This document shows, piece by piece, positions 3,230 through 23,071 of a stretch of DNA of 23,279 bases; the stretch's first letter is position 1; each line of letters opens with the position of its first letter. The stretch is from a virus. The stretch lies in IMG/VR virus record IMGVR_UViG_3300017598_000697, positions 1 through 23,279 of that record. One strand, 5' to 3'. The notes under the pieces were generated by a model. That model saw only the letters and a list, made by a program, of their open reading frames with translations, was not told the DNA's origin and did not search any database. The translations under genes were made by a program, and so were the position numbers.

Positions 3230-3438
3230 GTCTCACCCTCTTTTAATTCACTTGGGGATATCATCATCTTTTTTGCTGAAGCTGTTAATTCTTCATCTCT
3301 TCTATCAATAGCTTTTTGTAAAAAAGTTTTAGCTTTTTTATCTGTAATTAAAAATAATGATTGTTGAACGGATACTAGTTGATTTCTTTGCATTAAAAAG
3401 ATTCTGCTTGCTATCTCTTTTGCTTTATCTCCACTCAT
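3226..3438 (-). CDS. Small helical hypothetical protein
   Basis: A 70-residue helical protein (Met-Ser-Gly-Asp-Lys-Ala-Lys-Glu start), rich in Lys, Glu and Gln. A GTG three codons upstream (3447) is possible, but the ATG at 3436-3438 has a GGGG ribosome binding sequence at 8 nt and is preferred. It overlaps the end of a short upstream open frame (3425-3517), suggesting coupled translation. Function is unknown. Confidence 0.55.
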   Translation of the reverse strand: MSGDKAKEIASRIFLMQRNQLVSVQQSLFLITDKKAKTFLQKAIDRRDEELTASAKKMMISPSELKEGET

Positions 3439-3517
3439 GATTTTCACCCCAACGTCTTTTTTTAAAGAATTTTTTTGCTAAAATGAGAAATCTTATAATT
3501 ATGAATGAGTCTGTCAT
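3425..3517 (-). CDS. Possible 30-residue membrane microprotein
   Basis: A short open frame with a good ribosome binding site: AAAGG at 6 nt before the ATG at 3515-3517. The product begins MTDSFIIIRFLILAKKFF and ends with a very basic tail (Lys-Lys-Arg-Arg-Trp). That is one short hydrophobic segment followed by positive charge, as in small single-pass or membrane-associated phage peptides. It lies downstream of a TATAAT-like box and overlaps the next gene by 14 bp, so it could be the first cistron of the accessory operon or a leader peptide that couples translation. Chance occurrence in AT-rich DNA remains possible. Confidence 0.4.
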   Translation of the reverse strand: MTDSFIIIRFLILAKKFFKKRRWGENHEWR

Positions 3518-3627
3518 GTTTAACCTTTAAATTCATGTTAAGTGAATTATAAACTAATTATTCTATATTAGTTCATATTTTGTGAATTAAAGATATATTT
3601 TAGTCTATTTGTGTAATTAAGAAGCAC
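3518..3627 (-). promoter_or_regulatory. Probable promoter/operator of the accessory operon
   Basis: On the minus strand a TATAAT box (plus-strand 3546-3551) lies about 28 bp before the microprotein start. Around it are dyads: AACTAAT (3552-3558) paired with ATTAGTT (3567-3573), and AATTCA (3530-3535) paired with TGAATT (3543-3548). GTGAATTA also occurs twice directly (3542-3549 and 3582-3589), 40 bp apart. These could bind a repressor, but such short AT-rich dyads can arise by chance, so the operator call is tentative. Confidence 0.4.
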
Positions 3628-3834
3628 TTATTCTTCATTTTCTTGTGCTATGAGTGCTTGTAGTTTTGTTTTTTCTTTACATAATGCATCTATAGTCGTC
3701 TTTGCAGCCCAATAAAGACCAGGGGGTACATCATAGTTTGGATTTTCACATACTGACTCTATTAAAAATTTAACAGCCTCTATATGTTTTTCCATCTCTT
3801 CAAACGAATTATTTATATTACTTAAAGTTTGCAT
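3628..3834 (-). CDS. Small divergent hypothetical protein
   Basis: A 68-residue acidic helical protein with a good ribosome binding site (AAGGAAG, 4 nt before ATG). It is the first minus-strand gene facing the plus-strand 153-residue gene across a shared intergenic region. Its N-terminal half forms amphipathic helices, followed by an Asp-Val-Pro-Pro-Gly-Leu-Tyr-Trp segment and a second helix. No DNA-binding motif is evident. Position at a divergent control region suggests an early or regulatory gene, but that is inference only. Confidence 0.6.
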   Translation of the reverse strand: MQTLSNINNSFEEMEKHIEAVKFLIESVCENPNYDVPPGLYWAAKTTIDALCKEKTKLQALIAQENEE

Positions 3835-4016
3835 TTACTTCCTTTTATTAATTTTAATTTAATAATTATTTTAAATCAATCTTGTTAAATTACAAAAAGC
3901 TTACTTATATAATCTAATTATGTAATTTATCTACATAATTCTTAGTATTTTGCTAAGATATTGTTATTTACTAAATATTTACACTTGTAACAAGAAGTAA
4001 CAAAGGGGGGGGTGCT
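3835..4016. promoter_or_regulatory. Divergent control region with nested dyads and a G8 tract
   Basis: This region separates the only plus-strand gene from the accessory operon. It holds a perfect 9-bp inverted repeat, AATTATGTA (3916-3924) and TACATAATT (3932-3940), with a 7-bp spacer. It is followed directly by CTTAG (3941-3945) paired with CTAAG (3953-3957), and then a perfect 11-bp palindrome CTTGTAACAAG (3984-3994). TATAAT occurs at 3908-3913 and an extended -10-like TGCTAAGAT at 3951-3959. A run of eight G (4005-4012) provides the ribosome binding sequence of the plus gene. The nested dyads look like operators for a repressor controlling one or both directions; binding is inferred. Confidence 0.5.
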
Positions 4017-4478
4017 GTGAAACTAGAAAACACCGATTACTTTCCTCTTGTTCATAAGCTTTTTGGTTTTCCTAAATTAACATTTGCAAAAATGCTCTCA
4101 GGTGAAAAAGGAATCGGTAAACAACTACTAGCTGAAATGATAAAAGGTATCCCTGTAGAATTTTTACATAATAAAAAAAATAATATCCCATTCTTTAAAC
4201 CTAAAGGTTTTATATATTTAACAGAAGATAAATGTGACTTATTATTTGAGTTTCGTGCAGGTACAATCAAAAAATGGAAAAGTGAAAAGAAAGTATTTTT
4301 ACGAGAGTGCCTTCTAGATATTACAGAGCCTTATGCATACAATCGTTTGTCAATGATTTATAATGATAAAGCTATGCTCATTCTTTTCCCAAATATCACT
4401 AATAAGCTCTGTTTATCAAACGAAGCTATGCAACTTTGCAATAAATGTTTTTTTAAAGATTTTTGTAATAAAATTTAA
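4017..4478 (+). CDS. Divergent cysteine-cluster protein, possible regulator
   Basis: The only plus-strand gene, 153 residues, with a GTG start placed 4 nt after an eight-G ribosome binding tract. It ends with Leu-Cys-Asn-Lys-Cys-Phe-Phe-Lys-Asp-Phe-Cys (C-x2-C-x5-C). That spacing is used for iron-sulphur clusters in some PD-(D/E)xK nucleases, but the nuclease motifs are not evident here, so I do not assign that family. The N-terminal part has Leu-Phe-Gly-Phe and Gly-Glu-Lys-Gly-Ile-Gly-Lys segments and no clear helix-turn-helix. Its isolated orientation and operator-like upstream dyads are what one expects of a lysogeny or copy-control gene; that is inference. It converges tail-to-tail with the virion gene cluster, 3' ends overlapping by 4 bp. 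Confidence 0.65.
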   Translation: MKLENTDYFPLVHKLFGFPKLTFAKMLSGEKGIGKQLLAEMIKGIPVEFLHNKKNNIPFFKPKGFIYLTEDKCDLLFEFRAGTIKKWKSEKKVFLRECLLDITEPYAYNRLSMIYNDKAMLILFPNITNKLCLSNEAMQLCNKCFFKDFCNKI

Positions 4479-5743
4479 TCTAAAATCAAACTCTTTTTAA
4501 CTCCATCAACTATAACTTCTGCTTGTTTTTTGCTGGAATTTGTATCATCCTTTATATTTCGTTTTTTAACTTTCGTTGACGAAACCTCTTTAGTGGCTTT
4601 AAATATTCTTCCATATTCATAATCTTTAATAGGGAAGTTAATCATACCTTGTTTTGTATTTTTTATAGCGGCAGTGTTTGCACGTGCTAGTGAGTTAATA
4701 GACTCTATAAGTTTAGTACTGTCTTGAGACTTTTCAAAATTCCACTTAGCTGCACGTCCAGCTTCCGTTCCAGTTAAAGCTGCACCATATAGTTTATGCA
4801 TCTCTTCAGAATCTAGTTTACCTAAAAGCTGAATTAAATTATTTTGACGTGCTGTGTATCTATTGAAGCCCGACCAGTTTTTGGCTGTTTCATTTAACCA
4901 GCTTCCTTTATACATACCAGAAACATCTTCTATCTCTTCTTGCGAGTATTCATTTAACTCTTTTACAACTCTATCTAGTTCAACTTGAGCACCAATTTGT
5001 TCTTTTTCTTTAGGTTTCATAGTTTTATAGTCAATATATTTAACTTTTCCATTTGCTAAGTACTCAGCCTGCCCTGCTTCGTCCATAACTTTACCAAAAG
5101 CTTCTATATGTCTTTTGTTTTCATCATTAAGTGTATTAGCCCTTGCCTTATACGTATGCATCTTAACACTATCATTAAAGTTAGTCTCTTTTGGTTCACT
5201 TAAGTTGTCTAGTTGTGCTTGTTGCACTTTAAAAGTATTATATCTATCCATTAAACCAACAGCTATAAAGTTTGGTTTGCTTTCATCTTCAAATATAGTC
5301 TTCATAGATTTTTTAAAAGTAAGGTCATCTATATCACCATTATTTTCTTTTACAAATCCAGACCATGCATCATCTATCTCTTTTGATTCAAATACTTTTT
5401 TATTTTGATCATAATAATTTTGTGCCAATGAAGTATTTCGACCATTATTAAAAGTATGTTTTTTGTTAAAACTATCAAAGTCTTTATAATCTATCATTTT
5501 TGCAAACGTAGCATTATCACTTCTATCTTCTTCTAACATTTGAGTTTGTAAATTATTACCTAAAGTTTGTGAATTTAAAAATGAAGACCTGGTATCTCTA
5601 CTTACCTGCTCTGCTTTGATTTTATCTTGGTTTTCTATAACCTTACCAACATCACTAAAACCTTGCCCTACTCCAGTAAAAATATTTCCTTTTGGCATAG
5701 CTAAAGCAAAAATATTCGAGTTATATTGTGGATTTCTTTTCAT
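4475..5743 (-). CDS. Putative internal virion/ejection protein (helical)
   Basis: A 422-residue hydrophilic, helix-rich protein, the last gene of the tail-lysis block. It starts with a short basic segment and Phe-Thr-Gly-Val-Gly-Gln-Gly-Phe-Ser-Asp-Val-Gly-Lys-Val-Ile, a Gly-rich opening followed by a long helix, resembling the start of podovirus internal or ejected proteins. The rest is Gln/Asn/Lys-rich helices without an enzymatic motif. It is coupled to the previous gene by TAATG with GGAG upstream. One copy of the dispersed palindrome (4571-4584) lies within codons about 387-391, near the C-terminus. The virion role is inferred from composition and location after tail genes. Confidence 0.5.
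   Translation of the reverse strand: MKRNPQYNSNIFALAMPKGNIFTGVGQGFSDVGKVIENQDKIKAEQVSRDTRSSFLNSQTLGNNLQTQMLEEDRSDNATFAKMIDYKDFDSFNKKHTFNNGRNTSLAQNYYDQNKKVFESKEIDDAWSGFVKENNGDIDDLTFKKSMKTIFEDESKPNFIAVGLMDRYNTFKVQQAQLDNLSEPKETNFNDSVKMHTYKARANTLNDENKRHIEAFGKVMDEAGQAEYLANGKVKYIDYKTMKPKEKEQIGAQVELDRVVKELNEYSQEEIEDVSGMYKGSWLNETAKNWSGFNRYTARQNNLIQLLGKLDSEEMHKLYGAALTGTEAGRAAKWNFEKSQDSTKLIESINSLARANTAAIKNTKQGMINFPIKDYEYGRIFKATKEVSSTKVKKRNIKDDTNSSKKQAEVIVDGVKKSLILD
4571..4584. repeat. Dispersed palindrome, copy 1
   Basis: TTTCGTTGACGAAA inside the 422-residue virion gene. It is read in a different codon phase from the other three copies, encoding Val-Ser-Ser-Thr-Lys, so it is conserved as DNA rather than as protein. 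Confidence 0.8.
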
Positions 5744-5979
5744 TAGTTGACTCCTGATGTAGTTTTATTTGTATTTGTAGGTGTTGATGTACCCTCTGAA
5801 GTATCAGCTATGGTTGTATCTACATAATTATGAGTATGTGCATTAAATGCACTTTGCAATTCTTGCACAGTTGTCTCTAATGATGTCACCCTATTCGTTA
5901 AAGCTATGACAGTTGCATTTTGATTTCTTGATGCTAAAAAAGCTATTTTTGCTAGTTTATTATGTTTATTACTAGCCAT
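5743..5979 (-). CDS. Short coiled-coil protein with HTH-Asn-Tyr segment
   Basis: A 78-residue protein. The ATG at 5977-5979 overlaps the endolysin stop as TAATG and is preferred to a start six codons upstream. The centre is a short coiled coil (Val-Thr-Ser-Leu-Glu-Thr-Thr-Val-Gln-Glu-Leu) followed by Ala-His-Thr-His-Asn-Tyr and a Thr/Ser-rich tail. A trimeric coiled coil ending in a His-x-His turn recurs in small phage tail or spike-associated proteins, where histidines can bind a metal at the trimer axis. That comparison is by pattern only. It is coupled downstream to the 422-residue gene. Confidence 0.55.
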   Translation of the reverse strand: MASNKHNKLAKIAFLASRNQNATVIALTNRVTSLETTVQELQSAFNAHTHNYVDTTIADTSEGTSTPTNTNKTTSGVN

Positions 5980-6479
5980 TAGGTTCTCTCTATCCAACCA
6001 GCAAAAAACTTTTCTTGCTTAGGATTGTTTTGAGCAAATTCTTTGTATGCACAAAATTGGAACCCATTCAATGTTTTTAATAACTTTCTCTCTAGTACTA
6101 AGTCAACAGCTTTAAAAGTTTTAATTCCAATATATCCATCTACATCTAAATCTATAAACTTTAACTCATTACGATTAAGTATGTTAAGAGATTCTTGTAA
6201 CATTTTTCTTGCTGTTGTCATGCCCATATTTACTGCTGTATCAAACACTTCTATTGCTATGCTATCCGGTAAACTATCTAAGTTACCCTTTTTTGTATTC
6301 CAATAATCTTTATAATAAATTGCCCATGCTTCTCTAAGAGTTAGATTTTTGATATCCAACTCAGGATATGAACGTTTAGAGATACCGAACTTAGTTTCAC
6401 CACCTCTATCATCTGGGTCATCTACATAACCACCCTCTATTCCTACTGTTTCTTCAAAAGCTTTTTTAAATAAATCCAT
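5979..6479 (-). CDS. Endolysin, GH108 family N-acetylmuramidase
   Basis: A 166-residue cell-wall hydrolase that should cleave the MurNAc-GlcNAc bond of peptidoglycan at lysis. The family signature is clear: Val-Gly-Ile-Glu15-Gly-Gly-Tyr then Asp-Asp-Pro-Asp-Asp-Arg-Gly-Gly-Glu-Thr-Lys-Phe-Gly-Ile-Ser, with Glu15 the expected catalytic acid. A Tyr-Lys-Asp-Tyr-Trp segment follows. The second half has Asp-Thr-Ala-Val-Asn-Met-Gly and Asp-Gly-Tyr-Ile-Gly-Ile-Lys-Thr, matching the C-terminal peptidoglycan-binding module that accompanies GH108. There is no signal peptide or membrane segment, so it needs a holin to cross the inner membrane. Start ATG has AAAAAGG upstream. It follows the membrane and lipoprotein genes of the lysis cassette. 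Confidence 0.92.
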   Translation of the reverse strand: MDLFKKAFEETVGIEGGYVDDPDDRGGETKFGISKRSYPELDIKNLTLREAWAIYYKDYWNTKKGNLDSLPDSIAIEVFDTAVNMGMTTARKMLQESLNILNRNELKFIDLDVDGYIGIKTFKAVDLVLERKLLKTLNGFQFCAYKEFAQNNPKQEKFFAGWIERT

Positions 6480-8919: not shown

Positions 8920-10889
8920 TATATTAATCTCCAATCATTATTTATAAACTTTAAAACTACACTAGCATTATCAGTTTTAAGACCGCTATCTTCAGCTAAA
9001 GCCATAATAGTTTGAGCATTTCTTCCAATGATTAAGTTATTAGTTGAAAAGCTTGTAGCTACATCTAAGATTCTAACTTTTGTATCTGCTGGTGGTGTAG
9101 CTGGTAAAGTTAAAGTAAAAGCTCCAGCACTTGTATCGCATAAAACTAAGTCATTAGCTAAAGCTGTATAGTTAGCTGTTTTTACATCTGTTGTATTAAA
9201 CTTTGTATCTGTATCTGTCTTATCAGCTTTTAAATCAAATGCTGTTTGTTGAGCTGTAGAGATTGGCTTTAATTCATCTGATGTATTATCTACATTTTCT
9301 AAACCTACATCTGTTTTTGTGAGTGTTATTGCACCAGTTCTCCCATTAACACTTGATACATCTGAATTAATTACATCAAACGTTTGTATAGTTGCATCTG
9401 TATAAGTAATTGTATAAGTATCAATGTTTCCACTTGTAGCTGTTTTTGTTATACCAGATATACCAACACCCTGATCACCTTTTTCACCTTTTCCAAATGG
9501 TGAACCTGCAGACCAATCCGCATCTGCATCACTTAATTTAAAATATATTTTAGATTCATCTAATGCTAAAAAAGAAAAACCTTTTTGTTGGCTATCATAA
9601 AGACCCCTATCAGCTAATGCTCCAACTGAATTAACTTGAAATGCATCACCTTTATCACCTTTATCACCCTTTGGAATACTTATAAGCCATACTCCAGTAT
9701 TTACATCATAAGTTACCTTTACACTTTGCCCAGCATCTAATGTTTGAGCCTCTGCTGTTAATGCTGTTAACTCATCACGATATGCTTTTGCTTCACCTGC
9801 TTTGTCTGATGCTATAGCTGCATTATCTGCTGATGCTAAGATTTGCACCATGTTTGTTGAGATATTTGTTAGCTCTGTAAGTTTTGCGAATACTGCATCA
9901 ATGTTTAATTTATTATCATTTACTGCGTTAATATTAAATTCATTATCTGCTACTGCATTAACATTAGCTACATTATCCGCTACTAATTCTACTTGTGTTT
10001 TGTATGTAGGCTCTGCTACAACTTCTACTTTTGCTTTGTATGTAGCATTTGCTACTGTATTAATTAAGTTTGGACCACCAACTTTAATATCATCATAAAT
10101 TGCTATCAATCCAGTTAGTTGTGTATGGATTTCTTGCATTTTAGTTAAGTTTGTATATAAACTTTGCCCTGCTCCAGTTAATTTTTCTTTGTCATCATAA
10201 AGATATTGAATTTCATCTGTTTTACTAGCTAGAGCTATGATTGAGCCGATATCATTTCCTAATGCTATGATATCCCCTGCTCTATTAGCTAAAGTCTGTA
10301 ACGCAGATGTAGTCTTTGCCCAAAAATAAGCTGGATTTGTCTCAAGGGACGAGCCACTATAAGCTTGTAGTTGAATGCGGTCTATATTTGATGCGTTTCC
10401 ATCAACATCTCTAATTCTTATTAATGTTGGTAGGCTTGAGAGTGTATCGTTTATAACATCTATCTCTGTATTTAATACATGAAGTTGTGGATCTGATTCA
10501 GCATCATTGTAAGCTGCTATTCCAGTTATTAATCTGTTGTAGATTGAGGCATAAGAACTCAACTCTTCAACTACTGGATTTTGATTTTCATCTAACACAG
10601 TAAAGTCTATTTGAAAAGATGCACCAGTATTTAATGTTACAGTTAAACCTTTATATGTCACCTCTGTTGATAAACTAGTATTATTTAAAGATAAATCTAT
10701 ATCTAGTTTACGATTTCCTAAATAATTACTTTTAATTAAATCAGCAGATATCAAACCCATATCAAGGTCTGATATCTCTTTCATGATATCTACAATATCT
10801 TCACTAAATAAAGCAGTTGCTTTTTCAATAGTTGGTAATTTTTCATACAGTTCATTTTGTTTTTCAATAAAACCTATTTCTTCTTCCAT
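8919..10889 (-). CDS. Tail fibre protein with collagen-like segments
   Basis: A 656-residue trimeric tail-fibre-type protein. The N-terminal region (to about 270) is helical and beta mixed and probably attaches to the virion. Residues about 303-331 carry three 10-residue repeats of the Asp-Asn-x2-Asn-Ile-Asn-Ala-Val type. Short collagen-like Gly-x-y runs occur at about 407-415 (Lys-Gly-Asp-Lys-Gly-Asp) and 467-475 (Lys-Gly-Glu-Lys-Gly-Asp). Val-Asn-Gly-Arg-Thr-Gly-Ala-Ile and Gly-Leu-Glu-Asn-Val-Asp-Asn-Thr-Ser-Asp at about 514-538 are classic phage fibre repeats. The C-terminal domain is beta-rich. Its ATG overlaps the upstream stop (TAATG) with GGAGAG upstream. Confidence 0.85.
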   Translation of the reverse strand: MEEEIGFIEKQNELYEKLPTIEKATALFSEDIVDIMKEISDLDMGLISADLIKSNYLGNRKLDIDLSLNNTSLSTEVTYKGLTVTLNTGASFQIDFTVLDENQNPVVEELSSYASIYNRLITGIAAYNDAESDPQLHVLNTEIDVINDTLSSLPTLIRIRDVDGNASNIDRIQLQAYSGSSLETNPAYFWAKTTSALQTLANRAGDIIALGNDIGSIIALASKTDEIQYLYDDKEKLTGAGQSLYTNLTKMQEIHTQLTGLIAIYDDIKVGGPNLINTVANATYKAKVEVVAEPTYKTQVELVADNVANVNAVADNEFNINAVNDNKLNIDAVFAKLTELTNISTNMVQILASADNAAIASDKAGEAKAYRDELTALTAEAQTLDAGQSVKVTYDVNTGVWLISIPKGDKGDKGDAFQVNSVGALADRGLYDSQQKGFSFLALDESKIYFKLSDADADWSAGSPFGKGEKGDQGVGISGITKTATSGNIDTYTITYTDATIQTFDVINSDVSSVNGRTGAITLTKTDVGLENVDNTSDELKPISTAQQTAFDLKADKTDTDTKFNTTDVKTANYTALANDLVLCDTSAGAFTLTLPATPPADTKVRILDVATSFSTNNLIIGRNAQTIMALAEDSGLKTDNASVVLKFINNDWRLI

Positions 10890-11434
10890 TACTGCTCTCC
10901 TATGATTGTTGCTAGATGTTTATCAAAAATTTTCATATCTTGATTTTCAACTTTACCATCCGCATACAGAATAAAATATTCAATTATCTTTTTTTGATTT
11001 TGAGGAATTAAGTTTTCATCACCAAAAAGATATTTTTCTAAATTTTCTATAAGTATTTTGTTTATATTACTTTTTGTATTAGTTGAGTTTAAGCTGATAA
11101 AGTCTTTCATATATGCTGGTGTTTTGATAAGTGTTTTTATAAAGTTTATATCACTTGTTCCAATAGGGATATATAACTTTTTAGGCTTGATAGTTTCGTC
11201 GACGAAAGTCATTATATAAAAAATATCTAATGGTGATTTTTCTGTTTCAAATAAAACTATTTCAAAATTACCATTAGCATCTGTTGTCGCTTTTAGACTT
11301 GTAGGTACTATCTGCCCATCATCTTCAAACATGTTTATTTCATTATCATATTTGTTACACAATACAAAAGTTAACTCTTTTTCTGCATAACCATTTGATA
11401 CTATTGTGCTAATGTTTCCAGTTATCTTTCTCAT
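10889..11434 (-). CDS. Tail fibre-associated structural protein (first gene of tail operon)
   Basis: A 181-residue protein that opens the tail operon. Residues 1-110 alternate as beta strands around Thr-Asp-Ala-Asn-Gly-Asn-Phe-Glu-Ile, the opening seen in phage fibre-network or tail-fibre attachment proteins. The C-terminal 70 residues are helical. It is coupled to the long tail fibre by TAATG. The only poor feature is the lack of a clear ribosome binding site before the ATG. The promoter-like 42-bp repeat is only 5 bp upstream, so the mRNA leader would be short. The dispersed palindrome (11194-11207) encodes Phe-Val-Asp-Glu near residues 76-80. Confidence 0.55.
   Translation of the reverse strand: MRKITGNISTIVSNGYAEKELTFVLCNKYDNEINMFEDDGQIVPTSLKATTDANGNFEIVLFETEKSPLDIFYIMTFVDETIKPKKLYIPIGTSDINFIKTLIKTPAYMKDFISLNSTNTKSNINKILIENLEKYLFGDENLIPQNQKKIIEYFILYADGKVENQDMKIFDKHLATIIGEQ
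11194..11207. repeat. Dispersed palindrome, copy 2
   Basis: A perfect 14-bp palindrome TTTCGTCGACGAAA inside the first tail-operon gene, encoding Phe-Val-Asp-Glu. It lies about 280 bp from the iterons. Confidence 0.8.
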
Positions 11435-11438
11435 GAGG

Positions 11439-11480
11439 CAATTTTAAAACTTTTTATGATTATAAAAAAGGGGGGTAGTT
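11439..11480 (-). promoter_or_regulatory. 42-bp conserved promoter-like repeat, tail operon copy
   Basis: On the minus strand this reads AACTACCCCCC then TTTTTTATAATC and ATAAAAA, ending TTTAAAATTG. It contains a perfect TATAAT (plus-strand 11459-11464), about 25 bp before the first tail gene. It matches 19023-19064, upstream of the capsid operon, at 40 of 42 positions. The region where a -35 box would fall reaches into iteron 1, so initiator binding could affect tail transcription. No standard -35 is present, which would suit a phage activator or altered polymerase specificity; the factor is not identified. Confidence 0.65.
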
Positions 11481-11483
11481 GTT

Positions 11484-11591
11484 TTTCCTATAGTGAGGAC
11501 TTTATTATATATATTTCCCATATTGAGGACTAAAAAAGATTTATTTCTTATACTGAGGACAAAAAGGCTTTATTTTTCCCATATTGAGGTC
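11484..11591 (+). repeat. Iteron array 1, four units
   Basis: Four 17-bp iterons in the same direction: TTTCCTATAGTGAGGAC (11484-11500), TTTCCCATATTGAGGAC (11514-11530), TTTCTTATACTGAGGAC (11544-11560) and TTTCCCATATTGAGGTC (11575-11591). Start-to-start spacing is 30, 30 and 31 bp, close to three helical turns, so bound initiator molecules would lie on the same face of the DNA. They are inverted relative to array 2. Confidence 0.88.
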
Positions 11592-11597
11592 TTTTTT

Positions 11598-11749
11598 GTC
11601 CTCGCTATAGGAAATTATAGACTATATTCTCTGTTTTTTATACTTAAGTCCTCATATTAAGAAATCTATCCTCGTTGTAGGAAATAAAGTCCTCGTTGTG
11701 GGAAGCATGAAGTCCTCGCTATAGGAAATAAAGTCCTCGCTATAGGAAA
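11598..11749 (-). repeat. Iteron array 2, six units in opposite orientation
   Basis: Six units read GTCCTCGCTATAGGAAA or a close variant: 11598-11614, 11648-11664 (GTCCTCATATTAAGAAA), 11668-11684 (ATCCTCGTTGTAGGAAA), 11689-11705, 11712-11728 and 11733-11749. The first is followed by an AT-rich gap and the other five are spaced 20, 21, 23 and 21 bp apart, about two helical turns. The same word occurs in opposite orientation in array 1, and twice in the repB promoter. Confidence 0.88.
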
Positions 11750-11815
11750 TAAAACCCTTGTATGCTCTTAGAACACGAGTCTACTGAGTCTTTTAACTCT
11801 TAAGTATGTACTCTC

Positions 11816-12829
11816 TTAAGTACTAAATAAAGTATTTTGTTCTTTTTTTCTTGAAAAATCCCTATATTTTCCACTCTGTGATTTATATTCATCTATCTCT
11901 TCACTAGAGTAACCATATTTATGTGTCATCATCCCTCTATATAAACTCTCTAAAGATTCTAACTCATCTTCTATAATTAATTTTTTTACTTTAACTTTAT
12001 AATGATTAACTTTTTCTATTTTAGTTTTTGTATGTTCAACAACCCATTCTACAAACTCATCTATCCTAACACTTGGTATTCTACACTTAGAAACTACTTT
12101 CTCTAAATCTTTACACCATGAAAAAACAAATGATTTATGTGTTTTATCAAATGAACAAATTATCTCTTCACCAGTAAGTTTTGATATTTCATTAATACCA
12201 CGGTCTATCCCCTCTTTCATTTTAGATATATGTTTATGATTAGTTCCAAATTTATCATTTAACTCTTGAAGTGTCTTTTTTACTGTACCTAAACTTTTAT
12301 CTATTTTATTAGGCATAGAATAGTATCTTAAATACATTTCATATATTTTATATCCATACTTTGTTTTAAATTTTTTTGATAACGATAAGTTGATACTTGT
12401 ATAACCAGCTTGATCAATCATATAATTAATAAAACTTTCTGATATATCAATTTGTACTAAATGTTGTGTGTCTTTATATGATGTCACATCATGTAAAAAA
12501 GAAGTTAAAGCCCATCCGACTTTTTTACCATTTTTAATATCATTAAAATCTCTTAATTCAAAAGGTAATTTTAACTCTAATAAATAAGTTTTAATTCTAT
12601 CAACATAATCATTGTTTCGCTCTAAACCTAACTTTTTTCTTAGATAGGATAGTTCTAATGATATCTTACTATCTTGTCTCTCATGATATACTTGTAATAT
12701 AACATCTAATGATTTCATTGCCCCTAAAGACAATTCACCATTTTTTGCGTCTGTAATAGCATTATTTTTGCGAAGCATTTCAAAATGTTGTTCTTTTGCT
12801 TTTTCTAATGGGGTTTTTGCTTTAGCCAT
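11816..12829 (-). CDS. repB: Replication initiator protein, Rep_3 (RepB-type) family
   Basis: A 337-residue plasmid replication initiator with the two winged-helix layout of the Rep_3 family. The first domain (about 1-140) contains Leu-Arg-Lys-Lys-Leu-Gly-Leu and the Leu-Pro-Phe-Glu-Leu segment. The second holds Ile-Asn-Leu-Ser-Leu-Ser-Lys-Lys-Phe, then Tyr-Gly-Tyr-Lys-Ile-Tyr-Glu-Met-Tyr-Leu-Arg-Tyr-Tyr and a Leu-Gly-Thr-Val-Lys-Lys-Thr-Leu-Gln-Glu-Leu helix near the recognition region. These proteins bind iterons as monomers to open the origin and repress their own gene as dimers. Iterons downstream (11484-11749) and inside its promoter (12859-12895) fit both roles. Ribosome binding sequence AAGGA precedes the ATG. 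It is transcribed with the virion genes' direction and lies between ejection-type genes and tail genes, an unusual place for a plasmid replicon. The gene symbol follows the family name. Confidence 0.92.
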   Translation of the reverse strand: MAKAKTPLEKAKEQHFEMLRKNNAITDAKNGELSLGAMKSLDVILQVYHERQDSKISLELSYLRKKLGLERNNDYVDRIKTYLLELKLPFELRDFNDIKNGKKVGWALTSFLHDVTSYKDTQHLVQIDISESFINYMIDQAGYTSINLSLSKKFKTKYGYKIYEMYLRYYSMPNKIDKSLGTVKKTLQELNDKFGTNHKHISKMKEGIDRGINEISKLTGEEIICSFDKTHKSFVFSWCKDLEKVVSKCRIPSVRIDEFVEWVVEHTKTKIEKVNHYKVKVKKLIIEDELESLESLYRGMMTHKYGYSSEEIDEYKSQSGKYRDFSRKKEQNTLFST

Positions 12830-12924
12830 AAATATTCCTTAATTTGGAATTTCTATTGTACCTCAATTTAGGAAATAAGTCCTCAATATGGGAAATTTAA
12901 TATAATTTTTTTTATATGGCCTAA
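12830..12924 (-). promoter_or_regulatory. repB promoter with two iteron operators
   Basis: On the minus strand a TACAAT -10-like box (plus-strand 12855-12860) overlaps the first of two iteron copies: TACCTCAATTTAGGAAA (12859-12875) and GTCCTCAATATGGGAAA (12879-12895). Initiator bound here would cover the -10 and the presumed -35 region, giving negative autoregulation and copy-number control. This is established for Rep_3 plasmids and inferred here. The rest of the gap is AT-rich with no gene. Confidence 0.75.
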
Positions 12925-13305
12925 TTAACTAGACCATACCTTGTCATACTCATCTTGTTGTTTGTCTTGTTTTTTTGTCTCTTTATCAACTCTATTTTTT
13001 TCTAATTTAAATATATCATCTTGATACTCTTTAGTTAAAAAAGACTGATAGATTTGACCTACTGCTCCAGTAACAGCACCTACACCTTGTAAGGTTCCAG
13101 ATAAATTTTTTGAATCAAATAAGGTATCCCAGTTAAATGAATCATTTTTTGTAATATTTAAGTCATTTTCAAAAGCTTTAGGTTCATAACTTATAGTATC
13201 CCCCATAAAATTCTTATCTGGATTAATTGAAATATCATTATTAAATATAAAACTATCATTTACCCACTCCATAACTCCAGTTGTAGGGTTTTTTCTCATT
13301 GGCAT
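12925..13305 (-). CDS. Putative internal virion/ejection protein (small)
   Basis: A 126-residue protein with strong AAAAGG upstream. The middle has a Gly/Ala-rich hydrophobic helix (Leu-Gln-Gly-Val-Gly-Ala-Val-Thr-Gly-Ala-Val-Gly) followed by a long, very polar Lys/Glu/Asp/Gln-rich coiled-coil tail. This combination is typical of the small ejection protein of podoviruses (compare T7 gp14 in general layout). The identification is from composition and location after the larger membrane-active virion gene and upstream of repB. It is the last gene of the head/internal block. Confidence 0.5.
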   Translation of the reverse strand: MPMRKNPTTGVMEWVNDSFIFNNDISINPDKNFMGDTISYEPKAFENDLNITKNDSFNWDTLFDSKNLSGTLQGVGAVTGAVGQIYQSFLTKEYQDDIFKLEKNRVDKETKKQDKQQDEYDKVWSS

Positions 13306-17005: not shown

Positions 17006-18136
17006 TTATTTAATTGATTGAACACAAGCGATTACACCGTAATCTTTGCCATGCCATACTAATTTTTTCTCTTCTGCTGTTTTACCCATAAACTTAGCTT
17101 TTTCAAAACCAAAAAATGTATCAATAGCTGAAATCATTTTTCGACCACTATCAGCTGAATCTTCCAAATAATCAGGGATAGCTGCGAATGGTTGTAATCC
17201 TGCAGTAGCACCAAGAAGTAAGTTTACTTCAGTCTCAATCCCACCATTACCAGCATAATCACTAAAACCACCAGCATAATCTTCAAAATCTGGTGTTTTT
17301 GAAGTTACAACACCTTCATAATCATCATCCCAGTTTCCATTAGATACAATAATTGCAGTTTCAAACTCACCAATTTGACCAGATGTGATAAACTCACCAT
17401 TTGCTTGAGTAGATTGTGCAAGAGTCTCTTGATATGCTACCCATAATGGATCTTCTTTTAAAGTTTTTTTAGCAGCCTTACCTATACGAATTAGATAAAA
17501 ACCAACTTCAGTCTCTTGACCTTTGATATTTCTTTTTTCTGTTTTATAAGGACGAATACGTGGGTGTTTAACTCCATCTGCATCTTCATAACCATTTTCA
17601 GCACGATTTAATAGTTCAGTTATTGAAGCTGTATTAAATGTATCACCAACTTCTAAAGCTGAAGTTTCAACTTGTTCACCAGCTGCATTTAAAGATACAA
17701 TATTTGTACAATTTGCACTTAATTTTGCTGTACGGATTCTATTGATTGTATCTGAGAACCAATCGGCTAAACCCTCTTTAGCTTCATTTCTAAACTCTTT
17801 TGCGATTGTTTTAGAGTTGATTTTTTTATGTTGTGATTTGATAGAGTTTGCTAAAATATCACCAGTAATAACTTGATAAATATATTTTAATTTGTCTCTA
17901 TTTGCTTCAAGGTCAGTATTACCTTTAACACCACCACCACGAAGTAAACCACGTAAACTCATTGTGATGTTTTTAGAACCATTAGCATTTTCTACTAATT
18001 GTGTTTTAATAACATCATCATTTGTTGGACCCATTAAAGGTGTATAAAAACTAGCTTTACTTGCAGTAACGATAATATCTTTACCATGTGATTCTAAAGC
18101 ACTTGGTTCTCTTTCTATAAATTCATTTTCTAACAT
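17006..18136 (-). CDS. Major capsid protein, N4-gp56 family
   Basis: A 376-residue major capsid protein of the N4-gp56 type (HK97-like fold). The N-terminal part holds Leu-Met-Gly-Pro-Thr-Asn-Asp-Asp-Val-Ile and a Met-Ser-Leu-Arg-Gly-Leu-Leu-Arg-Gly-Gly-Gly-Val segment, and the middle has an Ala-Asp-Trp-Phe helix. The C-terminal third includes Val-Ser-Asn-Gly-Asn-Trp-Asp-Asp-Asp-Tyr, Leu-Leu-Leu-Gly-Ala-Thr-Ala-Gly-Leu-Gln-Pro, and Gly-Lys-Asp-Tyr-Gly-Val-Ile-Ala-Cys-Val near the end, the conserved tail of this family. GGAGATAAATAG precedes the ATG. It follows the scaffold and a 66-residue gene. It is the best marker of the virion lineage, a short-tailed (podovirus-like) phage with an N4-type capsid. 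Confidence 0.9.
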   Translation of the reverse strand: MLENEFIEREPSALESHGKDIIVTASKASFYTPLMGPTNDDVIKTQLVENANGSKNITMSLRGLLRGGGVKGNTDLEANRDKLKYIYQVITGDILANSIKSQHKKINSKTIAKEFRNEAKEGLADWFSDTINRIRTAKLSANCTNIVSLNAAGEQVETSALEVGDTFNTASITELLNRAENGYEDADGVKHPRIRPYKTEKRNIKGQETEVGFYLIRIGKAAKKTLKEDPLWVAYQETLAQSTQANGEFITSGQIGEFETAIIVSNGNWDDDYEGVVTSKTPDFEDYAGGFSDYAGNGGIETEVNLLLGATAGLQPFAAIPDYLEDSADSGRKMISAIDTFFGFEKAKFMGKTAEEKKLVWHGKDYGVIACVQSIK

Positions 18137-19449: not shown

Positions 19450-20013
19450 CTACTTTTGATGTATAATTTTCTGTAAATCTTCATTACTCATATTTTTCAT
19501 ATCCTCTTGAGTAATATTTCCATTTAAATTATTTATTACAAAACTTGCTGATTTAGCATGAATAGCGTTATGTGCAGATACCAACATATCATGAAAGATT
19601 TTATTTGTACCTATGCTTTTAGCATTTTTTGCAAATACTTCTGCTTTTATTAAGTTGTTAGCCATTTTAACCTGTAATGATTTTGTACTTAATTCATCAT
19701 TTATAAGTTCAGCTATCACTTTTTCATTGTACTCTGGAGTTTGGTTATTATCATCTTTTTCAGTTTCTTGTAGCAGCTGTATTTTTGTTTCTTCTTTTAC
19801 TACTTCCGTTACCGCAGTTGTAATGGTTTGTTGTACCTTTTCTTTTGTATTAAAATATTTATTTTTTATCCACTTTTCATTTGTAACCCATGCCTCTATT
19901 GTTTTTTTACTTACATCACACATTTTAAAAACTTCATATACTTTTGCGACTGAAAGATTATGTGTTTCGTAGTAAATTTTTATATCTTCTTTTAAAGTTT
20001 CATCAATAGCCAT
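19450..20013 (-). CDS. Terminase small subunit
   Basis: A 187-residue protein just downstream of the large terminase gene. The N-terminal 50 residues form a helix-turn-helix (Tyr-Tyr-Glu-Thr-His-Asn-Leu-Ser-Val-Ala, then Val-Ser-Lys-Lys-Thr-Ile-Glu-Ala-Trp) ending in Asn-Glu-Lys-Trp, the DNA-binding domain of many small terminases. The rest is helical and hydrophilic, fitting oligomerisation. It would recognise the packaging site and bring in the large subunit. The gene order large-then-small is the reverse of the common arrangement. TerL stop and this start are separated by zero bases (TAAATG), with GGAGAGG upstream. Confidence 0.7.
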   Translation of the reverse strand: MAIDETLKEDIKIYYETHNLSVAKVYEVFKMCDVSKKTIEAWVTNEKWIKNKYFNTKEKVQQTITTAVTEVVKEETKIQLLQETEKDDNNQTPEYNEKVIAELINDELSTKSLQVKMANNLIKAEVFAKNAKSIGTNKIFHDMLVSAHNAIHAKSASFVINNLNGNITQEDMKNMSNEDLQKIIHQK

Positions 20014-21552
20014 TTATATACCTCTCCATGTATGTCTTTTCTTTTTTAATGATTTTTTCTTAGTTTCGTTGACGAAACTTTTTTTAGGTACTGCAAATAA
20101 CCAAGTAGAAGCTACACAGTCTATGCAGTCATCTTTGTTATGTTTTTTTTCAGGGTTAAAAGCTAATAACTCTTTTATATATTGTTTTTGAAAGTCACTA
20201 TCACAGTTCTTATGGATTTTAATCAGGTGGGCTTCAAATGGGGCAGTTTTGTATTTTATTTTTTCATTTTTACTTATTTGATTGTTTGGTTTATAAACCT
20301 CTATATTTGCGTTTAAAAGAGTCATACCTTTAGCTCTTCTTTTAGCATTTTCGATTAAAAGTTCTTTTTTTAGTACTACACCTAAAGAGATTCCGCCACC
20401 AGCACCTTCAATATATACTGGTGCAGTTGGCCACTTAGTCATCAATGAGATTATATTATGTGCAGTTTCATAAACATCCCATATCCCACATCTGCCATCC
20501 ATGATTGTTTGTCTTTCTATCTCCTCTTCATTTATACTCCAACCAACTACACCTACTGCTCTGTTATCTGCTTTTTTATTTAATGATTCGGCATTATCAA
20601 CTGAGATATAAAGTTCTTGTTGGGGTAGGTCTACATCTGTAATATATGTAATATTTTCTTTTTTAAAGTGGCCAGCTTCTTTGTCTTCAGGGTCTTGTTG
20701 ATACTGACGTTTGTACTCTTTTTTTCCTAAGTCAAGTTCCATTTTTCTTAAATCTTCATGGTCTTCATATTGTATAAAAAGTGGTTCATTAGCTGCTCTT
20801 TCATATTTAAAATCACCATATTCGTAAGTGATAGCCTCTTCATTTAAAGCTACTAAATTAACATGGAACCACTCTTCACCTTGAGTTTTTAATAAAAACC
20901 CAGCTAAATCATCTTCTGCTAATCTTTGCATAATTAAAATTACAGCTTTTTGTTTTGAAGTTTTTTTAAGACGTGTAGATGTTGATTTTTGATAAAACTC
21001 TATCACTTGCTTTTTAGCTGCAGGCGAATCACTTTCCCCAGCTTTTAATGGATCATCTATTATTAAAATATCTGCATGAAATCCAGTGATGGTACCACCA
21101 ACTGTTGTTGCATAAAATCCACCACGAGAGGTTGTTTTCCAAAACTCTTTCTCATTTTGATCACGAGACAGTTCAACATCTTTAAAAATATTTTTGTATT
21201 TATCATCTTCAACTATACTTTTTGTTTCTACTGAAGTTTTTTTACTTAAGTCTCCAGAGTAACATGCATAAATAAAACTAAGTTTTGGAAAATTACCTAA
21301 AGAATGACTTACAAATATTCGACACACCTCTTCAGTTTTTCCGTAAGCTGGAGGCATATTAAAAATAACTCTTTTTAAATCTCCATTAAGTACACCCTGC
21401 AGTACAGCTGCAATATAACGATGATGCCAATTTAATACAAGTTCAACTTCGTAGATATATTGAAAAACATATTTCATAAACTCCATTAAATCACGTCTAC
21501 TCATCTCTCTAATAGCGAGTTGTGCTTGTGCATCTTTTTGGGACTGGGTCAT
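20014..21552 (-). CDS. terL: Terminase large subunit
   Basis: A 512-residue DNA-packaging motor. ATPase domain: Walker A-like Asn-Met-Pro-Pro-Ala-Tyr-Gly-Lys72-Thr, Walker B Ile-Leu-Ile-Ile-Asp166-Asp167, and a Val-Ile-Leu-Ile-Met-Gln-Arg coupling segment near 204-210. RNase H-like nuclease domain: Asp319 in Ile-Ser-Val-Asp, Glu382 in Val-Tyr-Ile-Glu-Gly, and Asp474-Asp475 with Asp478 near 474-478. All key acidic residues are present, so it should both translocate and cut concatemeric DNA. The C-terminal tail is very basic and holds one of the dispersed palindromes (20064-20077), encoding Phe-Val-Asn-Glu. It is followed by the small subunit and preceded by the methyltransferase. The longer start was kept; a clear ribosome binding site is lacking. 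Confidence 0.93.
   Translation of the reverse strand: MTQSQKDAQAQLAIREMSRRDLMEFMKYVFQYIYEVELVLNWHHRYIAAVLQGVLNGDLKRVIFNMPPAYGKTEEVCRIFVSHSLGNFPKLSFIYACYSGDLSKKTSVETKSIVEDDKYKNIFKDVELSRDQNEKEFWKTTSRGGFYATTVGGTITGFHADILIIDDPLKAGESDSPAAKKQVIEFYQKSTSTRLKKTSKQKAVILIMQRLAEDDLAGFLLKTQGEEWFHVNLVALNEEAITYEYGDFKYERAANEPLFIQYEDHEDLRKMELDLGKKEYKRQYQQDPEDKEAGHFKKENITYITDVDLPQQELYISVDNAESLNKKADNRAVGVVGWSINEEEIERQTIMDGRCGIWDVYETAHNIISLMTKWPTAPVYIEGAGGGISLGVVLKKELLIENAKRRAKGMTLLNANIEVYKPNNQISKNEKIKYKTAPFEAHLIKIHKNCDSDFQKQYIKELLAFNPEKKHNKDDCIDCVASTWLFAVPKKSFVNETKKKSLKKKRHTWRGI
20064..20077. repeat. Dispersed palindrome, copy 4
   Basis: TTTCGTTGACGAAA in the codons for the basic C-terminal tail of the large terminase. 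The flanks extend it to GTTTC...GAAAC arms. It encodes Phe-Val-Asn-Glu. Confidence 0.8.
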
Positions 21553-21553
21553 T

Positions 21554-23071
21554 TTAGGCTATTTTCTCAGCTGCAGTAACATAAAAATTACTCTCTACTA
21601 ATATCTTAGCCATAAGAGGTACCACGCTATTACCGCACATTCTTACTTGAGCAGTTTTTGGTAAAGGTTTTCCATTGTACTCAATGTTAATCTTATAGTC
21701 TTTTGGAAATCCTTGTGCTGTGTATAATTCTCTTGGTGTAAACATTCTCATGCAGATATCTATTACCTGGTACTGTTTATTTTTTACTTCTATAAGTGCA
21801 AATCTATCTTTAGTAGTGATAGTATGTGTTGGGTCTGCGACATTTTGACCTTCGCCTACACCATAGTATTTCATCATATAAGCATTTACGTCATTCTCAT
21901 TTTGTGCTTTGAATTTTAAATCATATTTTTCTATAAATGCTTGTACTAATGCAAAGTGTCCACCTTTAACATTTGCACATATTGTACGTAATGGTTCATC
22001 TAATGCCATGTTACGTTGTGATGAACCATTTGCGTGTTCTGTAACAAAAGGAGCGACTAAAGCATGACGACTTCCACCAGCTGTAATAGTTCCCACTGGT
22101 GTATCAAGTGGATTACCTCTTGGATTTTGTTCACTTGTAGAACTTCCATAGTAAGTAGATACATATGGTAAAACTAATGCACTTTTAATGCCTCCGGCTG
22201 TAATAGTTCCTAAAGGTGAATCTACTACACTTCCAGTTGAAGCACCATAAAATGTAGAAACATAAGGTACCTTGTCTTTTACTATAAAAGGTTCTTTTTT
22301 ATCTATGATAAACTTCTTCATGCCTTTAGCTAGACGTTTCATAGTATTTTCAGCAAGTGGTCTTCTTACCCCAACTTTTTTGCCTTCTTCTTTAGATAAA
22401 AAGATAGAGTGTGCAGGTATGGACCAGTCAATACATTCAGCTGCAGTAGCCCAAGGCAAACGCTCAGGGAATTTTTTAGGGTCTCCATGAGTAGGTTCAG
22501 GAAATACTATCGGCATTCCATCGCAACGAGCTATTAAAAATAATCTTTTACGAATAGTTGGAGCACCATAATCTGATGCTCTTAATTCTTTGAACTCTAC
22601 CTGATATCCCAATTCTTCAAAAGCTTTAACAAACTCTTTAAATGTTTCACCTTTTTTGGAAGGAATAGGGCGATTATTTGCACATATAGGCCCCCAAGTT
22701 TTAAACTCTTCTACATTTTCTAAAAAAAAGATTCTAGGTCTTACAGCTTTAGCCCATTTTATAGCAATCCAAGCAAGACTCCGTATATCACAACTAACTG
22801 GTGCTGAACCTTTTGCTTTTGAAAAGTGTTTACAATCTGGACTTAGCCATGCTCCACCAACTGGTACACCATTACAAGCTTTTGCGATATCTACTTCATG
22901 AATATCTGAAATATAATGTTTTGTATTTGGATGGTTTGCTTCATGTAATGCAATAGCTTGTGGATCATGATTTATGGCAATGTCAGGACTAACCCCTAAT
23001 GCCATTTCTATACCAGTAGAAGCACCACCGCCACCAGCAAAGCCATCTATAAATAATTCACCATTTAACAT
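21554..23071 (-). CDS. DNA cytosine-5 methyltransferase
   Basis: A 505-residue C5-methyltransferase. Motif I is Asp9-Gly-Phe-Ala-Gly-Gly-Gly-Gly-Ala at the N-terminus. Motif IV is Ser-Pro-Asp-Cys80-Lys-His-Phe-Ser, with catalytic Cys80 and the common phage variant Pro-Asp-Cys in place of Pro-Pro-Cys. Motif VI is Glu118-Asn-Val, motif VIII Asp-Tyr-Gly-Ala-Pro-Thr-Ile-Arg-Lys-Arg near 167-176, and motif X Met-Cys-Gly-Asn-Ser-Val-Val-Pro. Between VIII and IX, about residues 265-427 carry four repeats of the Tyr-Val-Ser-Thr-x-Tyr-Gly, Thr-Ile-Thr-Ala-Gly-Gly type, which probably form the target-recognition region. It lacks a nuclease partner in the window, so it most likely protects phage DNA from restriction. 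AAAGGA precedes the ATG. Confidence 0.93.
   Translation of the reverse strand: MLNGELFIDGFAGGGGASTGIEMALGVSPDIAINHDPQAIALHEANHPNTKHYISDIHEVDIAKACNGVPVGGAWLSPDCKHFSKAKGSAPVSCDIRSLAWIAIKWAKAVRPRIFFLENVEEFKTWGPICANNRPIPSKKGETFKEFVKAFEELGYQVEFKELRASDYGAPTIRKRLFLIARCDGMPIVFPEPTHGDPKKFPERLPWATAAECIDWSIPAHSIFLSKEEGKKVGVRRPLAENTMKRLAKGMKKFIIDKKEPFIVKDKVPYVSTFYGASTGSVVDSPLGTITAGGIKSALVLPYVSTYYGSSTSEQNPRGNPLDTPVGTITAGGSRHALVAPFVTEHANGSSQRNMALDEPLRTICANVKGGHFALVQAFIEKYDLKFKAQNENDVNAYMMKYYGVGEGQNVADPTHTITTKDRFALIEVKNKQYQVIDICMRMFTPRELYTAQGFPKDYKINIEYNGKPLPKTAQVRMCGNSVVPLMAKILVESNFYVTAAEKIA

Follow-up and report, generated by a model that had tools for sequence, protein, structure and literature searches.

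A plasmid-derived Rep_3 iteron replicon between virion genes of a Campylobacterota phage points to a phage-plasmid

Phage-plasmids are already known as a kind of element. The prophage initiator RepA of P1 binds iterons (PMC7157519). In about 20% of the cluster A mycobacteriophages, parABS substitutes for the integration cassette, and a few of these encode a RepA that extrachromosomal replication requires and that suffices for it (PMC7157519). KHP30 encodes an integrase, yet its presence in cells has been reported to be episomal (PMC7688985, PMC11321410).

The DNA analyzed here, referred to as the window, is a linear fragment of 23.3 kb (IMG/VR record IMGVR_UViG_3300017598_000697), in which positions 11435 to 12924 carry an iteron replicon. 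The likeness to P1 lies in the iteron-binding initiator, and the low-copy plasmid prophage that is P1's state may be that of the window phage as well. In contrast to P1, however, the window replicon is located in a late operon without par genes in view, and the two virions are unrelated. The RepA/parABS phages of cluster A (Miko, Rachaly, and Jeeves; PMC7157519) resemble the window in that plasmid maintenance genes replace an integrase cassette within one phage cluster and in that a plasmid-type initiator lies near virion genes, but phage and host are unrelated, no iterons were found at repA, and the Rep protein is not reported as Rep_3. An initial reading of the letters (the sequence-only reading) had held that known phage-plasmids use other backbones. 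This contrast is overstated for P1, because an iteron-binding RepA makes the iteron-initiator class of phage-plasmid an old one.

The rep gene (11816–12829, minus strand) encodes a Rep_3/RepE-type protein of 337 amino acids, whose N-terminal WH1 domain matches Pfam PF01051 (Rep3_N) with 40.3 bits (cut-off 22.4). A sequence search of the PDB with the Rep profile gave no match, and therefore a fold search was performed with a predicted model of moderate confidence only (pLDDT 75). Residues 30 to 243 of this model align to mini-F RepE54 with a Z score of about 15 and to pi with 12.8, and Rep is predicted to consist of two winged-helix domains as in these proteins. Mini-F RepE, the closest fold, binds iterons. 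Judged by domain, predicted fold, and phased iterons, Rep is an initiator of the Rep_3 class (RepE, pi, and pPS10 RepA), predicted to bind iterons and to initiate replication. The window protein retains all 112 positions that are invariant in ten relatives, its branch length is ordinary among them, and comparison with the nearest relative gives a dN of about 0.19 and a dS of about 1.05. The GC content of rep (0.258) falls inside the range of the phage genes (0.228–0.361). These comparisons show a Rep that is intact and under purifying selection, and they do not suggest that rep was inserted recently or is decaying.

The iteron consensus TTTCCYATANYGAGGA has 11 matches in the window with at most two mismatches, all within positions 11484 to 12895, whereas dinucleotide shuffles predict 0.16 and never exceeded 2. 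When one degenerate copy is counted, there are 12 iterons, two at the rep promoter and ten downstream of rep in the putative origin, so that the Rep_3 initiator, the promoter iterons, and the ten-iteron origin proposed earlier are all recovered with the right counts. The promoter pair TTTCCCATATTGAGGA (12880–12895) and TTTCCTAAATTGAGGT (12860–12875), on the minus strand, is the presumed autoregulatory operator of rep; pairs spaced by 20 bp also lie upstream of rep in five related loci (L002, L008, L009, L010, and L011). By direct reading, a putative −10 hexamer TACAAT (12855–12860, minus strand) abuts the proximal iteron, and in L008, L009, and L010, too, a TATAAT or TACAAT stands immediately behind that iteron. 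When the rep region was scanned for sigma-70 patterns, fewer sites were found than in shuffles, and this hexamer was not listed among them; the −10 assignment therefore rests on the comparison with relatives. Its position directly after the promoter-proximal iteron would fit autorepression of rep.

The core of the putative origin (11649–11749, minus strand) comprises five iterons in the sense of rep, at 11734–11749, 11713–11728, 11690–11705, 11669–11684, and, as a weaker copy, 11649–11664. Their start-to-start spacing of 21-23-21-20 bp is shared, in an alignment, with the region downstream of rep in pSDCE1 (L002), L008, L009, L011, L012, and L014. A sixth rep-sense iteron with the exact consensus (11599–11614, minus strand) recurs in L008–L011 and L013. 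Four further iterons occupy 11484–11590 on the plus strand (11575–11590, 11544–11559, 11514–11529, and 11484–11499), 30 to 31 bp apart, and opposed copies are also present in L002, L008–L014, and L017. The earlier statement that everything here points the same way is thus true of the genes only, since the iterons lie in both orientations. Taken as a unit, 11435–12924 is by its sequence a complete iteron replicon with initiator, promoter iterons, and a presumptive origin.

In the plasmid-database search with the initiator that the sequence-only reading had suggested, the nearest annotated relatives were Rep proteins of Sulfurospirillum diekertiae plasmids (62% and 57% identity), with more distant ones residing on Nitratiruptor and Hydrogenimonas plasmids. 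A genome scan yielded 15 relatives, ten of them at 62 to 77% identity and nearly all on Campylobacterota contigs; the nearest is only 75 to 77% identical, that is, about 24% diverged. The closed circular S. diekertiae plasmid pSDCE1 (NZ_CP059996) and the par-linked Campylobacterales contigs share with the window a Rep of 62 to 77% identity, the same iteron, the core spacing, the opposed distal iterons, and, in most, the two promoter iterons. The difference lies in the surroundings. On these molecules parAB is found beside rep (parA-parB divergent from rep in L008–L013, parAB ahead of rep in pSDCE1), whereas the window replicon stands alone in a phage late operon. No homologs of phage terminase, capsid, or portal were found on pSDCE1 or the par-linked rep contigs. 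On this comparative evidence, the window replicon is of plasmid ancestry and its donor a Campylobacterota plasmid family. One relative (L012, WFMP01000141.1) is labeled Candidatus Gracilibacteria but carries a Campylobacterota Rep, 70% identical to that of the window and close to Sulfurimonas L009, which is probably a binning error.

The host group of the phage is Campylobacterota (the Helicobacter/Sulfurospirillum group). Its virion and packaging genes include those for the major capsid protein (MCP; 17006–18136, minus strand), which matches PF13252 Phage_capsid_3 with 46.5 bits and phrog_334 at E 9e-33, and the terminase large subunit (TerL; 20014–21552, minus strand; phrog_38 at E 4e-88). 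The N4-gp56 capsid named in the sequence-only reading found no support, as NCBIfam gave no match for this protein at E 0.001. Adjoining TerL is a probable small subunit, so assigned by position (19450–20013, minus strand; 31–38% identical to the genes at the same place in the four relatives described below). An endolysin (5979–6479, minus strand; Glyco_hydro_108 and PG_binding_3, phrog_315) and a tail fiber gene are also recognizable. Directly upstream of terL lies a C5-cytosine methyltransferase gene (21554–23071, minus strand; PF00145), a position occupied in four relatives by dnaB or ssb; G414 carries a homolog of it (52%; 3433–4905) in its early region. In an otherwise minus-strand layout, positions 4017 to 4478 hold a plus-strand candidate gene of 153 amino acids with a GTG start, located between late and early-type genes, for which no family match was obtained at E 0.01.

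Four elements are colinear with the window, namely G412 (IMGVR 3300028584_000885, 35.2 kb), G413 (3300042208_000036, 46.7 kb), G414 (2871084118_000001, 48.1 kb), and contig 112 of genome G364 (22.9 kb), within a Campylobacterota phage family whose members span 23 to 48 kb. They share with the window TerL (45–47%), MCP (34–53%, the highest value being that of G412), and the order of the late genes, but differ in having an O-like and DnaB module beside terL, no detected Rep_3, an integrase after g11 wherever that region is seen, and, in G412 and G414, ParAB. Because the portal, a protein of 1580 to 1749 amino acids, the S24 repressor, and the O/DnaB genes of these relatives (where seen) are all missing from the window, the record represents roughly half a genome; it is about half the length of G413 or G414, and no end repeats were found in the 23.3 kb. 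The closest named phages are Helicobacter phages, with 22 to 28% identity in MCP and 33 to 37% in TerL. By these identities the window phage is distant kin of Schmidvirus (KHP30 and 1961P) rather than a member. With 1961P and KHP30 the window shares a related TerL (about 34%) and a weakly related MCP, and the portal (30%) and DnaB (33%) of the window's relatives are also related to theirs. Unlike the window, both encode an integrase and an HTH_36 'replication initiation protein', which was considered as the same Rep and rejected because it is unrelated to Rep_3.

The replicon is bordered by g21 (12925–13305, minus strand) and g19 (10889–11434, minus strand), both virion-type, on the strand of rep, and homologous to adjoining genes in G412, G413, G414, and G364. 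The interval between them measures 1,491 bp in the window, about 50 bp in G412, and about 90 bp in G414, and in G413 and G364 it holds one lipoprotein-like gene, of which G414 has a homolog at another place. The g21–g19 interval is a cargo slot, occupied in the window by the Rep unit, and the earlier proposal of a plasmid replicon set between virion gene blocks is correct in view of the plasmid kinship and the colinear gene order. The lipoprotein-like homologs (G413 33432–34034, G364 contig 112 13882–14511, and G414 21982–22623; 26–29% identity) may be a mobile lysogenic-conversion or exclusion gene.

Searches for the same arrangement elsewhere were negative. Rep3_N exceeded its cut-off in 0 of 9 related virus records, and no match to Rep was found among INPHARED phages. 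Viral-contig scans with Rep (a single protein and two alignments) and with the tandem-iteron pattern found no relative and no match, respectively, in scans that may omit near records, and a first viral-contig scan with a single capsid protein found no relative either. Neither the window MCP nor G414 DNA matched PLSDB plasmids, and the portal gave a single match of 23% there, in a Paracoccus megaplasmid. Relative to the collections searched, the source of Rep, the phage lineage, and the slot are new, and the earlier suggestion of a distinct lineage holds against these phage and plasmid collections, in which the nearest named phages are of the Helicobacter Schmidvirus type.

The junction of the overlapping genes g11 and g10 (4475–5997, minus strand) marks the place where relatives carry an excisionase-like gene and a tyrosine integrase behind g11; in G364, G413, and G414 the integrase is found 0.3 to 0.4 kb beyond g11. 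The similarity of g10 to the gene of 463 to 504 amino acids that precedes the 1580- to 1749-amino-acid gene in relatives is weak (E 2e-5; hhalign probability 26%), and the integrase argument is therefore framed on g11 alone. A scan of the 23.3 kb window for Phage_integrase gave no match up to E 1, and no serine recombinase or resolvase was found in it, consistent with the earlier remark that no integrase is in view. Likewise, a search of the visible half of the genome for ParB and par genes was negative, and no repressor, ParAB, or portal is present there. Three relatives (G412, G414, and G362) encode ParAB with about 28 to 41% identity to the proteins of the parA-parB pair that diverges from rep in L008–L013, and S24 lysogeny repressors are present in relatives. 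Because ParAB occurs together with an integrase in G414 and G362, plasmid genes in this phage family do not exclude integration, and the family mixes integration and plasmid strategies. A search for iteron-like repeats around the par genes of G412 found only families of two or three copies that resemble chance occurrences. The repressor-par region of this closest relative also contains an ArdC-type antirestriction gene with a zincin domain (L163 15785–16717). ArdC-type antirestriction genes are typical of plasmids.

Considering these data together, we judge the window to be best, and probably correctly, explained as part of a temperate tailed phage of Campylobacterota that carries a plasmid iteron replicon and is maintained as a low-copy circular plasmid prophage. 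Both phage-homologous virion and packaging genes (MCP, TerL, tail fiber, and endolysin) and a plasmid-type initiator and origin are seen. This reading is favored by the match of Rep, iterons, and spacing to the plan of a closed circular plasmid; by an intact, selected Rep with the predicted fold of mini-F RepE; by flanks colinear with four relatives whose slot is empty or otherwise filled; by ParAB in three relatives, the lack of an integrase downstream of g11 in the window, and the S24 repressors of relatives; and by the reported episomal state of the distant relative KHP30. It is weakened by the linear half-genome fragment, whose unseen half may hold an integrase and whose visible half shows no repressor, ParAB, or portal; by the ParAB of G414 and G362, which coexists with an integrase; and by the failure of our searches to find a second phage with this Rep. 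The phage-plasmid proposed in the sequence-only reading therefore stands as the best explanation, although a fragment of this kind does not demonstrate it. The sequence itself establishes the intact replicon, its kinship with plasmids, its position within the phage gene order, and the lack of an integrase in the visible half, whereas a temperate lifestyle, an extrachromosomal prophage, autoregulation, copy control, and origin activity are inferred.

An integrating temperate phage that carries the replicon as cargo is a less likely alternative, but one that retains some weight. Rep and its origin would then act only briefly, to start replication once the phage has infected or excised, or would serve to exclude resident plasmids by incompatibility. 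That the g21–g19 slot holds unrelated genes in relatives, that integrases occur in close relatives (in two cases together with ParAB), and that about half of the genome lies outside the record all suit this view, yet an integrase is lacking both at the usual place after g11 and anywhere in the 23.3 kb, and an incompatibility decoy would need iterons only, whereas the whole replicon has been kept. Far less probable is a recent, non-functional plasmid insertion in a decaying prophage, the outcome that would have spoken against the earlier proposal. Rep is clearly plasmid-derived, and the searches revealed it in no other phage, but it shares only 75 to 77% identity with the closest Rep, dN is far lower than dS, and none of the family-invariant residues is lost, so that it does not behave as such an insert; moreover, the twelve iterons remain in register, the surrounding phage genes are open and ordered, and neither border of the unit showed a transposase gene. 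We attach an equally slight probability to a chimera in which assembly joined a plasmid contig to a phage contig. Although the window is a single metagenomic record, syntenic phage genes flank the Rep unit on both sides, its borders fall exactly between two phage genes, and other plasmid genes are absent (parA adjoins rep in plasmids), so two independent chimeric joins would be required.

If the phage-plasmid reading is correct, replication would start when Rep monomers occupy the five phased core iterons that follow rep, the origin opens, and the helicase of the host is loaded, and binding of Rep to the two promoter-overlapping iterons would turn off synthesis of Rep itself. The opposed origin iterons would pair with the core iterons via Rep (handcuffing) and thereby cap the copy number. 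Partition would be performed by ParAB encoded in the unseen half, and upon induction the phage genome would be packaged as usual. A more far-reaching version, which we regard as improbable, holds that the plasmid Rep_3 replicon replaced both the integrase and the O-like/DnaB module, such that a single plasmid origin would both maintain the prophage and initiate lytic replication. It is suggested by the methyltransferase gene beside terL, at a position that dnaB or ssb occupies in four relatives; the O-like/DnaB module may simply reside in the unseen half.

The phage-plasmid reading points to a Campylobacterota lineage that was not found in INPHARED or PLSDB, with an identified donor plasmid family. 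The different combinations of integrase, ParAB, and Rep across the phage family offer natural comparisons for the interconversion of integrating phages and phage-plasmids. In addition, the self-contained replicon of 1.5 kb is a possible vector origin for Sulfurospirillum and Sulfurimonas.

Two further features were observed in relatives of the phage. A reverse transcriptase gene lies beside a tail-type gene in L045 (18178–19182), G413 (28419–29417), and L051 (13261–14316), a layout that resembles a diversity-generating retroelement; the best NCBIfam model for the L045 protein is a group II intron reverse transcriptase, below cut-off. No such gene was seen in the window. Finally, a chromosomal prophage relative (L044 4355–11947, in G409) has an open frame of at least 2531 amino acids downstream of its capsid genes, perhaps akin to the very large protein of the window's phage family.
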